A model generated the notes under the pieces. It searched no databases. It saw only the letters and a program-made list of their open reading frames with translations, and was not told the DNA's origin. Of a stretch of DNA of 60,161 nt, positions 807 to 21,292 are shown piece after piece (within the stretch, counting starts at the first letter, position 1; every line of letters starts with the position of its first letter). The translations under genes and the position numbers were made by a program. Location of the stretch: contig CAMYJD010000023.1 in NCBI GenBank assembly GCA_947258655.1, positions 1 through 60,161 of the forward strand, written 5' to 3'. This DNA comes from an uncultured Gammaproteobacteria bacterium. Lineage in GTDB: Bacteria > Pseudomonadota > Gammaproteobacteria > JAADHQ01.

Positions 807-1670
807 ATGAGCGCGAAAATCATAGATGGTAAAAAAATTGCTGCCGAGCAACGGGCTGAAATCGCAAAAAATATTGCCACACTAAACCGGACAAAGGGCT
901 TCAGGCCCGGCCTCGCGGTGATCCTGGTGGGTGCAGATCCGGCATCAGAGGTATACGTCAGAAACAAGCGCAATGCCTGCGAAGAAGTCGGGATCATGTC
1001 CAGGGCCTATGACCTGCCGGCATCCACACCGGAACAGGAACTGCTGTCCCTGATTGACCAGCTCAATAATGATGAGGATATAGATGGTATCCTGGTGCAG
1101 TTCCCGCTACCCGAACAGATCAATACCGAGACAGTTATCGAACGCATTCGCCCGGATAAAGACGTCGACGGCTTCCACCCGTATAACATTGGACGTCTGG
1201 CTGTACGCATGCCGACCCTGCGCTCCTGCACACCCTATGGGGTTATTAAATTACTCCAGTCAATCGACGAGGAGTTTTATGGTCGCGAGGCGGTGATTGT
1301 CGGTGCGTCTAACCATGTCGGCCGTCCGATGGGTCTGGAATTATTATTGGCCGGATCTACAGTGACGACCTGCCATCGGTTTACGCGTGATCTGGCTGCC
1401 TGGGTCGGGCGCTCGGATATTGTCATTGTCGCTGTCGGCAAACCAGGCCTGGTCAAGGGTGAGTGGATCAAGCCCGGCGCTACTGTCATTGATGTCGGTA
1501 TCAATCGCACCGCAGATGGTAAACTGGTCGGTGATGTTGAATTTGACAGCGCCTTCGAACGGGCTGCCTGGATTACTCCGGTACCCGGCGGTGTTGGGCC
1601 GATGACGGTCGCGACACTGATGGAAAATACCCTTGAGGCGGCTTGTACAAGGCGTGCTATCAAGATCTGA
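807..1670 (+). CDS. folD: Bifunctional methylene-THF dehydrogenase/cyclohydrolase FolD
   Basis: Cytosolic enzyme that oxidises 5,10-methylene-tetrahydrofolate with NADP and hydrolyses the product to 10-formyl-THF, feeding purine and formyl-Met synthesis. The 287-aa length matches the family. Visible signatures are the catalytic Tyr50 and Lys54 (YVRNK), the QFPLP substrate motif near residue 98, a GASNHVGRP nucleotide-binding loop near 168, and a C-terminal PGGVGPMT motif. I chose ATG 807 over the in-frame TTG at 804 because MSAKIIDG is the usual FolD start; AGGA lies about 11 nt upstream. It is transcribed divergently from the tRNA cluster. Confidence 0.95.
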
Positions 1671-1699
1671 CACGATACGACCATCGCCAATGATGGCTA

Positions 1700-16765: not shown

Positions 16766-17500
16766 TCATATCTCCGTGTCGACAGCAGTGCCGGCCATAT
16801 TTATCAAACGATAGTTCGGGGGTAAACTAAATACATCAGATGCTGCTTTATAGGCGCGATCATAATCGACGAGCAAGCGTGATACACCATCGGCACCCTG
16901 CTCCAATATCGGAAATCCGAACTGCATACTACGCGACGGAGATAACACATCATGAGCAAGAAAACACTCATCCTGCATATCGGCAGGTGTGTTGTTGATG
17001 GTACTGAGATGAATACTGGCCAGAATCCGCTTGAATTCGGCCATTGCCAACATGGCTTCTTCATGCAGGCCCTTGATCACATAGACATCCGCGCAGGTTT
17101 TATCATTGACCTGCAACTGGTAATGGATCGGTTGCTTGCCTTCTATGGCAGGTAAACTGGCGTCATCCAGTTTCTTCGCATCCAGGCTCAGTTTGCGCTC
17201 GATCTTATGCTTACTGTTAACGGACTGGACCTGCATGATCGTTTGATTTTCATGTGACACGGTATAAATTACGTTTTGTTTACGGTCATACAGGGTAAAA
17301 TTGCTCTGATCAACACCGTCATCAAGGCGCATAAATTGTTTATTGACCAGCACCCGGGTCATATAGGGTTCCATACCCGGCTCTGATTCCTGATACATTA
17401 ACATCAGGTCGGTATCGGGATCTGCACCCTTATCACTGCATGAGACCAGTAAGGATAAACATACAATAACTAACGGAAAAACACCGTTGCTTCTATTCAT
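16766..17500 (-). CDS. Lipoprotein of unknown function
   Basis: 244 aa beginning with a lipoprotein signal peptide; the lipobox LLVSC places the acylated cysteine near residue 21, followed by SDKGAD. The mature part is hydrophilic, with two further cysteines, and I recognise no known domain. Its start overlaps the end of the DUF455 gene by 8 nt, which indicates co-transcription with that gene. A gap of about 180 nt, with an open but probably untranslated frame, separates it from the DUF4253 gene. Confidence 0.7.
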   Translation of the reverse strand: MNRSNGVFPLVIVCLSLLVSCSDKGADPDTDLMLMYQESEPGMEPYMTRVLVNKQFMRLDDGVDQSNFTLYDRKQNVIYTVSHENQTIMQVQSVNSKHKIERKLSLDAKKLDDASLPAIEGKQPIHYQLQVNDKTCADVYVIKGLHEEAMLAMAEFKRILASIHLSTINNTPADMQDECFLAHDVLSPSRSMQFGFPILEQGADGVSRLLVDYDRAYKAASDVFSLPPNYRLINMAGTAVDTEI

Positions 17501-18311
17501 ATATACCTGCTTGCTGCTTTAACATTGTCAATTCCTCGTCTGAGAATCCGGCTTCGCGACGCGCCTGATCATGAAAAGGGCCCTTCACATGACCCTGCAT
17601 ATAATCCTGTAATAATGCCGTAAATGTCTGCCCGGCATCAATACCCCGTTGCTTGCATACATACTGGAACCAGCGTGTACCGATCGCTACATGGCCGATC
17701 TCATCACGCAGAATTATCTCCAGTAAGGCCACGGTGCGCAAATCACCGGCGCCACGCAGACGCTCGATCATGCCCGGGGTCACATCCAGGCCCCTGGCCT
17801 CCAGCACCCGCGGCACCAGGGCCATGCGTACGAGCACATCGTGATCGGTCTTGCAGGCCATTTCCCATAGCCCGTTGTGGGCATCGAAATCGCCGTAATC
17901 ACAATCCATTTGCTGCAGGCGCTCGCGTAGCAGGGAAAAATGATACGCCTCTTCTTCGGCCACCTGCAACCAGTCATTGTAGTAATCTCGCGGCATATCA
18001 CGGAACCGGTATATTGCATCCCAGGCCAGATTGATCGCATTAAATTCAATATGACAGATAGCATGCACAAGGGCCTGACGACCCTGATCGGTATTGATTT
18101 TACGTCGCGCAAGCTTGTTGGGCGGCACCAGCCTCGGCAATGGGGGGCGCCCCGGTTCGGGTAATGCGATGGCCTGTTCATGGTAATGCAGGTCCAGTAG
18201 GCCATCACACCATTGGCGCGCATAATAATGCGTCAGGAACACTTTTTCCTGTGCATCGCTACACTCCAGACAACGTTTGGCAGCGGCATACAATGATGTA
18301 ATCATATCCAT
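17493..18311 (-). CDS. DUF455 ferritin-like protein
   Basis: 272 aa, helical. Two sets of carboxylate/histidine ligands typical of ferritin-like di-iron folds are visible: HIEFNAINLAWDA (near 87-99) with EEEAYHF (about 118-124), and EARG-LD with LRDEIGHVAIG (near 207). DUF455 proteins resemble MiaE-type tRNA hydroxylases, but substrates are unproven. ATG 18311 is used; ATG 18305 is two codons on. The stop overlaps the downstream lipoprotein start. Confidence 0.8.
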   Translation of the reverse strand: MDMITSLYAAAKRCLECSDAQEKVFLTHYYARQWCDGLLDLHYHEQAIALPEPGRPPLPRLVPPNKLARRKINTDQGRQALVHAICHIEFNAINLAWDAIYRFRDMPRDYYNDWLQVAEEEAYHFSLLRERLQQMDCDYGDFDAHNGLWEMACKTDHDVLVRMALVPRVLEARGLDVTPGMIERLRGAGDLRTVALLEIILRDEIGHVAIGTRWFQYVCKQRGIDAGQTFTALLQDYMQGHVKGPFHDQARREAGFSDEELTMLKQQAGIYE

Positions 18312-18381: not shown

Positions 18382-19563
18382 TCACAGGCCCCGCGCCAGG
18401 TCCTTGATGATATCCCTGACATCTTCCAGACCCACGGCAACACGTATCAGGCCATCGCTAATACCTGCCTGTTGTCGCTCTTCGTCGGTCAGCCTGCCAT
18501 GTGTAGTCGTCGCCGGGTGCGTGATTGTCGTTTTCGCATCGCCGAGGTTGGCTGTAATCGATAACATCTGCGTGGCATCGAGCAGACGCCAGGCCGCTTC
18601 CTTACCCCCACTAACCTCAAACGATACGATGCCACCGAAGGCGTGCATCTGACTGGCGGCCAGTTCATGTTGTGGATGTGACTCCAATCCCGGATACCAG
18701 ATGCGAGTGACATTATCCTGTTGTTGCAACCACTGTGCAATCTCCATGGCATTGTGACTATGACGCTGCATACGCAGGCCAAGTGTCTCCAGACCCTTCA
18801 GAAATACCCAGGCATTGAACGGGCTCATACTGGGGCCTGCAGTACGTAGAAAGCCATAAACATCGGTCCCGACCAATTGTTCTGACCCCACGACGGCTCC
18901 ACCTACACAGCGCCCCTGACCATCGATATACTTGGTAGCTGACTGGATGACGATATCTGCTCCCTGTTCCAGGGGTCGTTGCAGGACCGGCGTGCAAAAG
19001 CAGTTGTCCACCACCAACAGCGCTTCATGATCATGTGCAAGCGTGGCCAGCGCACGAATATCGGCGACTTCTGTCAGTGGATTAGATGGTGTCTCCAGAA
19101 AAAAAATACGTGTATTGGCCTGTACCGCATCAGACCAGGCCTGCATATCGGTCTGGTCGACATAACTGATCCCGATACCGAATTTTTCGAGAAAATTATT
19201 AAACAGAATAACCGTGCTGCCAAATATACTGCGTGACGAGACAATGTGGTCACCCTGACGCAGGATGCCGGCACAGGTTGCATAGATCGCTGCCATACCC
19301 GAGGCCATGGCGACACAACGTTCCCCCCCTTCAAGGGCTGCCAGGCGCTGCTCAAAGGTACGCACGGTGGGGTTGGTAAAGCGCGAATAGATATTGCCCG
19401 GGTCCTCGCCCGAGAAACGTGCCGCCGCAGCTGCCGCGCTATCAAACACATAACTGGAAGTCGGGAAGATGGGCTCGGCATGCTCACCTTCCATTGTGCG
19501 CTGCTGTCCCGCCCTTACCGCTATCGTGTCGGGATAATAGTCATTAATCGGGTCATCAGACAT
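18382..19563 (-). CDS. metZ: O-succinylhomoserine sulfhydrylase MetZ
   Basis: 393-aa PLP enzyme of the Cys/Met metabolism family, converting O-succinylhomoserine and sulfide to homocysteine in methionine synthesis. The Schiff-base lysine is Lys211 in SATKYIDGQGR, and the SRFTNPT and ASGMAAI motifs are in place. MetZ typically follows purF in pseudomonads and relatives, as here. AGGA lies just upstream of the ATG. The leader carries a SAM-II-like aptamer, an intrinsic terminator and its own promoter, so expression should fall when SAM is abundant. It is thus transcribed separately from purF. Confidence 0.95.
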   Translation of the reverse strand: MSDDPINDYYPDTIAVRAGQQRTMEGEHAEPIFPTSSYVFDSAAAAAARFSGEDPGNIYSRFTNPTVRTFEQRLAALEGGERCVAMASGMAAIYATCAGILRQGDHIVSSRSIFGSTVILFNNFLEKFGIGISYVDQTDMQAWSDAVQANTRIFFLETPSNPLTEVADIRALATLAHDHEALLVVDNCFCTPVLQRPLEQGADIVIQSATKYIDGQGRCVGGAVVGSEQLVGTDVYGFLRTAGPSMSPFNAWVFLKGLETLGLRMQRHSHNAMEIAQWLQQQDNVTRIWYPGLESHPQHELAASQMHAFGGIVSFEVSGGKEAAWRLLDATQMLSITANLGDAKTTITHPATTTHGRLTDEERQQAGISDGLIRVAVGLEDVRDIIKDLARGL

Positions 19564-19604
19564 TCCTGCGTTCCTCTGTATCAGTGTCTCTTTCAGGCGG
19601 GTAT

Positions 19605-19637
19605 AAAAAAACCCGCATTAGCTGTGCTAAAGCAGGT
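19605..19637 (-). terminator. Riboswitch-controlled terminator before metZ
   Basis: On the minus strand ACCTGC (19637-19632) pairs with GCGGGT (19616-19611), continued by TTAGC/GCTAA around an ACA loop with one U-U mismatch, and is followed by seven T residues (19611-19605). Its 5' arm overlaps GCTTTAGC (19633-19626), which can pair instead with GCTAAAGC of the aptamer (19652-19645). Confidence 0.85.
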
Positions 19638-19640
19638 CGG

Positions 19641-19699
19641 CCACGCTTTAGCTGTATTTATATAGCGCCCGCAAGCTGATGCTCAAATCGGCGCTCGGG
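19641..19699 (-). ncRNA. SAM-II (metA-type) riboswitch aptamer upstream of metZ
   Basis: The minus strand carries the conserved SAM-II elements in order: 5' stem strand GCGCCGATTTGAGC, a loop, CTTGC, the 3' stem strand GGCGC, an A/U-rich linker TATATAAATACA, and the pseudoknot strand GCTAAAGC. This matches the known metX/metA aptamer core (GAUUU, UUGC, AUAAAU, GCUAAA). The terminal pseudoknot pair GC/GC replaces the usual CC/GG and keeps complementarity. It sits in the metZ leader with a competing terminator, as expected for a SAM-sensing off switch. A covariance search would confirm the family. Confidence 0.85.
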
Positions 19700-19702
19700 A
19701 AA

Positions 19703-19731
19703 AGCTTAGGAAAAGTCTGCGGTCTTGTCAA
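19703..19731 (-). promoter_or_regulatory. metZ: metZ promoter
   Basis: On the minus strand a perfect -35 TTGACA (19731-19726) and a weaker -10 TAAGCT (19708-19703) are 17 nt apart. The predicted start (about 19696) coincides with the first base of the aptamer stem, so the leader transcript begins with the riboswitch. Confidence 0.65.
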
Positions 19732-19753: not shown

Positions 19754-21292
19754 TCATCGAGCATTATGCATATCGATCAGCGCAGGCTCTTCGTTATGGT
19801 GCGAATCATCAACAGCATCATTACTACCAGGATTCTTGGCGCTGTCATTGCGCAGCTCCTCCAGTTGATCCAGGTAATCCTGGGTAACATCACCGGTTAT
19901 ATACTCTTTATTGAAGACCGAAGCATCGAAACGTGTTATACGTGGATTACCCCGGCGCACGGACTCTTCCAGGGCATCCAGATCCTGAAAAATCAGCCAG
20001 TCCGAACCGATCAGCTCGTTGACTTCCTCGACACTGCGACCATGTGCCACCAGCTCGGTGGCCGATGGCATATCAATGCCGTAGACATTCGGATACTGCA
20101 CCATCGGTGATGCCGAGGCGAAATAGACCTTGCTTGCACCGGCCTCGCGTGCCATCTGAACAATCTGCTGCGAGGTCGTTCCCCTGACAATGGAGTCATC
20201 TACCAGCAATACATTCTTGCCTTTGAACTCCAGCTCGATGGCATTGAGCTTCTGACGCACCGATTTTTTCCGTTGTTTCTGACCTGGCATGATAAAGGTC
20301 CGGCCGATATATCTGTTTTTAATAAAGCCCTCGCGATACTTGACCCCCAGCGAGTTGGCCAGCTGCAATGCGGATGTACGACTGGTATCCGGAATGGGGA
20401 TGACAACATCGATATCATGATCCGGGAATTCACGCATAATCTTGTCGGCCAGCATCTCCCCCATGCGTAAGCGCGCCTTGTATACGGATATATCATCGAT
20501 AATCGAGTCAGGCCTGGCCAGATAGACATATTCGAACAGGCACGGTGAGTGTGTCGGCTTTTCTGCACACTGACGGGTAAACAATTCGCCGCTCTTACTG
20601 ATAAATACCGCCTCGCCAGGCTCGATATCCCTGATCAGCTCAAAGCCCAGTGTATCCAGCGCCACGCTTTCCGAGGCAATCATGTATTCGACACCCGTTG
20701 ATGTTTCGCGCTTGCCAAATACTACCGGGCGAATACCATTAGGATCACGAAAGCCGACGATACCATGCCCGGTAATCATCGCGACGACGGCATAACCACC
20801 TAAACAACGACGGTGAACTGACGATATTGCGTTAAAAATATCATTTTCATCGATGGGATGTTTGCCCTGATCCAATTCATGGGCAAAGATGTTGACCAGT
20901 ATCTCCGAGTCTGACTCGGTATTGATATGACGCAGGTCTTCGCGGAACAGGTTTTCCTTCAGGGATTCTGCATTCGTCAGGTTGCCATTATGGGCCAGTG
21001 AAATACCGTATGGTGAATTGACATAGAAAGGCTGAGCCTCGGCAGAACTGGAGCAACCGGCAGTAGGATAGCGCACATGACCAATGCCCATTGTACCAGT
21101 GAGCTTGAGCATATGGCGGGTATGAAAAACGTCTCTGACCAGACCATTGTCCTTGCGCAGGTGGAGGCGGTTATTTTCGTCACAGGTCATGATGCCTGCA
21201 GCATCCTGGCCTCTATGCTGCAATACGGTTAACGCATCATAGATATTCTGGTTAACGGGCTTTTGAGAGACAATGCCGACAATCCCACACAT
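19754..21292 (-). CDS. purF: Amidophosphoribosyltransferase PurF
   Basis: 512-aa enzyme of the first committed step of purine synthesis (PRPP plus glutamine to phosphoribosylamine). The N-terminal Ntn glutaminase nucleophile Cys2 is exposed after Met removal (MCGIVGIV). The C-terminal phosphoribosyltransferase domain shows the PRPP loop [14 protein letters not shown] near 363-376. It lies downstream of cvpA on the same strand, as in E. coli and Pseudomonas, with a gap of about 60 nt. Confidence 0.97.

Follow-up and report, generated by a model that had tools for sequence, protein, structure and literature searches.

How is metZ controlled in an uncultured gammaproteobacterium that carries the gene downstream of purF? 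The window analysed here, a stretch of 60,161 nucleotides, holds purF, encoding amidophosphoribosyltransferase (19754..21292 (-); TIGR01134 524.6 bits, over cutoff), upstream of and co-directional with the regulated gene metZ, which encodes an O-succinylhomoserine sulfhydrylase of 393 aa (18382..19563 (-); NCBIfam NF006003 689.6 bits and TIGR01325 582.9 bits, both over cutoff). Between the purF end at 19754 and the metZ start at 19563, the minus strand carries, in this order, a promoter, an aptamer and an antiterminator/terminator. We are highly confident that this arrangement represents a SAM-II riboswitch whose expression platform works by transcription attenuation; judged from its sequence, the metZ leader almost certainly acts as an RNA sensor of S-adenosylmethionine (SAM) that halts transcription when SAM is plentiful. 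A gene for a DUF455 protein lies downstream of metZ (17493-18311 (-)), and no Pfam family matched 16766-17500 (-). In the genome set examined, the host order comprises four genomes, all belonging to a single genus. Among named records the closest is the MAG ES_Gamma_034; its MetZ shares 87% identity with that of the window.

A first-pass annotation had read a SAM-II riboswitch at this position and had proposed a search with the Rfam covariance model and a look for compensatory changes. Its coordinates and complementarities were all correct when we re-read the sequence. When the whole window was searched with Rfam at its gathering thresholds, SAM_alpha (RF00521) was not reported. Searched against 231 nt, the same model matched 19704-19631 (-) over its full length (1-79) with 29.2 bits and an E-value of 4.8e-5, significant though under the Rfam gathering score of 36, which is a curation threshold and not a structural feature. 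We also aligned 27 elements that RF00521 had found in other genera of the class, the window's genus being excluded, and built from them a covariance model containing P1 only. On the whole window this out-of-genus model scored 78.9 bits (E 1.3e-17) at 19704-19628 (-), and the runner-up scored 13.6 bits. Thus, the SAM-II identification is borne out by both models.

The anatomy of the aptamer (about 19644..19695 (-)) is that of its class. P1 is formed by AGCGCC (19695-19690) and GGCGCT (19669-19664 (-)); in the 27 relatives, 4 of its 6 pairs are changed on both sides and 99.4% of the cells are paired, and none of 500 shuffles reached the covariation score obtained for the structure as a whole. 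The compensatory changes are therefore present in P1, as they are in the lower terminator stem of the relatives (see below). The P2 pseudoknot pairs GCUUGC (19676-19671) with the GC and AAGC of GCTAAAGC (19652-19645 (-)). Its inner pairs U-A, U-A, G-C and C-G are invariant in 27 of 27 relatives and thus lend P2 no support by covariation; such invariance is compatible with the pseudoknot and is by itself no proof. The outermost two P2 pairs are kept in 17 and 23 of the 27 relatives (unpaired in 10 and 4), and the window has all six pairs. The pocket sequences GATTTG, TTGC (as CTTGC) and GCTAAA are present in the window and are invariant or nearly so in the alignment.

Upstream of the aptamer lies a sigma-70-like promoter (19703..19731 (-)), recognised from its sequence and from the position of TTGAC in relatives: TTGACA at 19731-19726 (-) is followed after 17 nt by the -10-like TAAGCT. 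The latter is weak, matching the consensus at 3 of 6 positions, which is why the promoter is absent from a consensus promoter/terminator scan of the window. In 111 of 142 related elements TTGAC recurs 36-60 nt before the aptamer GATTT, at distances that peak sharply at 40-45, as compared to 12 occurrences in the next 50 nt upstream of the same elements. Thus, both the promoter and its placement are supported. Transcription would be expected to start near 19696, at P1, and the spacing of TTGAC backs the earlier proposal that the start coincides with the aptamer.

Downstream of the aptamer, folding and the relatives identify an intrinsic terminator, GACCUGCUUUAGC-ACA-GCUAAUGCGGGUU (19605..19638 (-); hairpin 19638-19610), with a folding energy of -14.7 kcal/mol and one U.U mismatch, followed by seven U (19611-19605). 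A simple promoter/terminator scan of the window did not list it because of this mismatch in the stem. The terminator overlaps an antiterminator hairpin, GCUAAAGCG...GCUUUAGC (19626..19652 (-), -12.6 kcal/mol), which is the minimum-energy structure of the leader and whose complement is kept in relatives. The complementarity is exact: the terminator 5' arm GCUUUAGC is the precise complement of the aptamer pseudoknot strand, GCTAAAGC at 19652-19645 and GCTTTAGC at 19633-19626 (-) being complementary at 8 of 8 positions, as the first reading had stated. Across the roughly 120,300 strand positions of the window, the 8-mer GCTTTAGC appears 6 times, which puts the probability of meeting it by chance in a span of about 45 nt at about 0.002.

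The two hairpins are mutually exclusive and coupled to the aptamer, by folding as well as by an asymmetry between the terminator arms of relatives. When growing transcripts were folded freely, the antiterminator formed at every length from about 76 nt, once GCUUUAGC had emerged; when the P2 strand GCUAAAGCG was barred from pairing, which is what a P2 stabilised by SAM would do, the terminator formed instead. An intrinsic terminator is within reach in 120 of 147 non-redundant related elements. Among the 56 metZ-linked elements with terminators, the complement motif was found in 37 of the 5' arms and the mirror motif in none of the 3' arms, counts that come from relatives sharing descent and are not independent events. 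The duplex between aptamer strand and 5' arm had a mean energy of -9.3 kcal/mol in these 56 elements, versus -3.7 kcal/mol for shuffled arms. In these relatives the 5' arm is conserved, and its 3' partner drifts and tolerates mismatches. In a terminator with no second role, both arms would be under equal constraint; conservation of the 5' arm alone thus supports a strand shared between two structures. In 42 elements chosen by their 5' motif, the TTTAGC arm stays and one pair of the lower stem next to it appears as CG, GC, TA and AT, so the terminator stem is itself under selection.

What is the mechanism of the switch? Class membership and the anatomy of the leader point to SAM as the ligand, to termination that depends on SAM and to the direction of switching. 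Transcription would begin at P1. With SAM scarce, the aptamer 3' strand GCUAAAGC would capture GCUUUAGC on its emergence, forming the antiterminator and letting RNA polymerase continue into metZ. With SAM bound, the P2 pseudoknot would sequester GCUAAAGC and leave GCUUUAGC free to pair with GCUAAUGC; the resulting terminator, ahead of seven U, would turn metZ off. The logic first proposed for this leader, in which one strand is common to pseudoknot and antiterminator and SAM means off, therefore stands on the covariance models, on folding and on the comparative asymmetry, its SAM dependence being inferred. A late inverted repeat around the U-tract, GCGGGU-UUUUUUAU-ACCCGC (19597..19616 (-), -10.0 kcal/mol by folding), has the U-tract as its loop and could form only in read-through RNA, which it might refold. 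It occurs in 11 of 53 metZ-linked terminators versus 2 of 48 control terminators, which is weakly suggestive of an extra element.

Alternatively, the aptamer could act on translation, with the bound pseudoknot masking the Shine-Dalgarno sequence and the terminator serving purF constitutively. The SAM-II switches of the Sargasso Sea and of Sinorhizobium meliloti metA do work via the Shine-Dalgarno sequence (PMC9373788), and the terminator lies directly downstream of purF, whose transcripts it may also end. However, the metZ Shine-Dalgarno sequence GAGGAA is about 70 nt past the P2 strand and beyond the terminator, and the complementarity of the terminator 5' arm is specific to the P2 strand and retained in relatives. 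We thus regard translational control as improbable and favour attenuation.

The genes under control bear on the ligand. As expected of SAM-II, metZ lies downstream of the element, and a second SAM-II copy in the same genome, with the same arrangement, precedes metK (contig C6, about 96754-95316), where the terminator arm CGCTTTAG pairs with CTAAAGCG of the metK aptamer. These two copies are all that the out-of-genus model found in the genome, and genus relatives keep both (G003). A third RF00521 match in the genome (contig C18, 22.8 bits) was rejected, as it lies in a coding-like region where the out-of-genus model is silent. MetJ was looked for in this genome and not found. Behind metK we also observed a SAH riboswitch that passes its cutoff with 60.1 bits, followed by an ORF read as ahcY from its sequence; at the metK locus, SAM-II and SAH riboswitches thus stand opposed at adjacent steps in the SAM cycle. 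Could a look-alike of the SAM-II pocket bind another ligand? The RF00521 score is under the Rfam threshold, and a spermidine riboswitch class has been reported that is built on a closely related form of a SAM aptamer (PMC10853860). Yet GATTTG, TTGC and GCTAAA are constant across the 27 aligned relatives and the genes controlled in this genome are metZ and metK, leaving another ligand very improbable; SAM is the ligand we retain. Finally, a plus-strand small RNA, to which the match of RF02424 (Bp2_287) at 19594-19730 (+) could point (30.5 bits, E 2.2e-05), is hardly credible, since that score is far under the RF02424 gathering score of 70, promoter and terminator are both on the minus strand, and the match arises because the RF02424 consensus reads as a reverse-complemented SAM-II aptamer.

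How common is the element? We searched 369 genomes drawn evenly from the GTDB class Gammaproteobacteria, which includes the former beta-proteobacteria. At an E-value of 0.003, RF00521 matched 128 of the 369 genomes, 30 of them over the Rfam cutoff, and none of 14 control genomes. At an E-value of 0.001, the out-of-genus model matched 177 of the 369 and 153 of the 313 good-quality genomes, the 14 control genomes belonging to the RF00521 search only. Judged by these model matches, the Rfam threshold greatly understates how widespread SAM-II is among Gammaproteobacteria. The first-pass annotation had called the element, in its gammaproteobacterial purF-metZ setting, an unusual example, a claim that does not hold given its presence in 177 of 369 class genomes and the prior publication of a SAM-II terminator before metZ (PMC9373788). 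The window element is genuine, yet nothing out of the ordinary within its known class.

Genes identified downstream of these elements include metZ, metK, metX, metA, metH and those for aspartokinase/homoserine dehydrogenase, methylenetetrahydrofolate reductase and betaine-homocysteine methyltransferase. In many metX-linked members from beta-proteobacteria the terminator 5' arm is without the complement, which was present in 4 of the 59 elements with a gene scored as neither metZ nor metK. The antiterminator design is thus not universal, and these metX-linked elements likely use a different one. At loci including L054, L111 and L136 we observed a terminator CCCAGTCCGC...CTGGG whose 5' arm is without the GCTTTAGC complement. 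Tandem SAM-II aptamers were seen at L045:4241-4400, L023 (about 1515-1660 (-)) and L032 (about 1515-1680 (-)), with a hairpin and T-tract after the first aptamer and none after the second; tandem SAM-II switches are already known (PMC9481103).

How does the metZ leader compare with known systems? It shares with SAM-II (SAM_alpha, RF00521) the P1 stem, the GATTTGA/CTTGC/AAAT/GCTAAA core, the H-type pseudoknot and a methionine gene downstream, but its gamma-type consensus (GCGCC...GGGCGC, a short loop 1 and a short 3' end) scores under the Rfam cutoff. SAM-V has a pseudoknot and ligand-contact bases resembling those of SAM-II (PMC2704228), but acts on translation, unlike the attenuator proposed here, and was absent among matches at E-values up to 10 in the 231-nt Rfam search. 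A described counterpart is in S. meliloti, where SAM-II before metZ has a predicted SAM-dependent intrinsic terminator and gives rise to the RZ sRNA (PMC9373788); the likeness, drawn from its description, extends to SAM-II and a terminator before metZ, in an alphaproteobacterial host. A study of 2014 reported SAM_alpha only in Rhizobiales and Rhodobacterales (PMC4239095), and in the literature readable without subscription we found no SAM-II with metZ in Gammaproteobacteria and none equated with metXZ.

The metXZ element was described in that study (Leyn 2014) as a novel pseudoknotted RNA before metX or metZ in beta-proteobacteria, with a proposed terminator-antiterminator (PMC4239095). It has the same gene position, a proposed pseudoknot and terminators, but was not equated with SAM-II. 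In the beta-proteobacterial lineages concerned, we found SAM-II elements ahead of metX or metZ, and position, lineage and architecture suggest that the metXZ element is probably SAM-II. Bp2_287 (RF02424), a Burkholderia sRNA adjoining purF, metZ and metX (PMC3521395), comes from the same locus type and is annotated on the opposite strand; reverse-complemented, its consensus gives the SAM-II core and contains GATTTGA...CAGCTTGCGG...GCTAAAGCG. At an E-value of 1e-6, RF02424 matched 1 of the 369 class genomes (G158), and in this single case (contig C56) the match overlaps a SAM-II match on the opposite strand, in line with an antisense reading; in all ten loci searched, several of them beta-proteobacterial, RF02424 was below threshold. 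Judged by its consensus, RF02424 is thus a probable antisense strand of the SAM-II element, that is, a likely strand error in the family.

The genus examined here lends itself well to testing SAM-II attenuation, a mechanism that rests mostly on prediction, with two copies in one genome (metZ and metK), an exact shared strand of 8 nt at metZ and a SAH riboswitch behind metK. More broadly, we consider it likely that the shared-strand SAM-II attenuator is one of the main SAM sensors of the class, present in about half of the sampled genomes and mostly hidden by the Rfam cutoff, and that metXZ and the wrong-strand RF02424 are this same riboswitch. A gamma-tuned model recovers the element in 177 of 369 class genomes, against 30 over the Rfam cutoff; if the wider reading holds, annotation would be corrected, and a known riboswitch would replace two separately named orphan elements.
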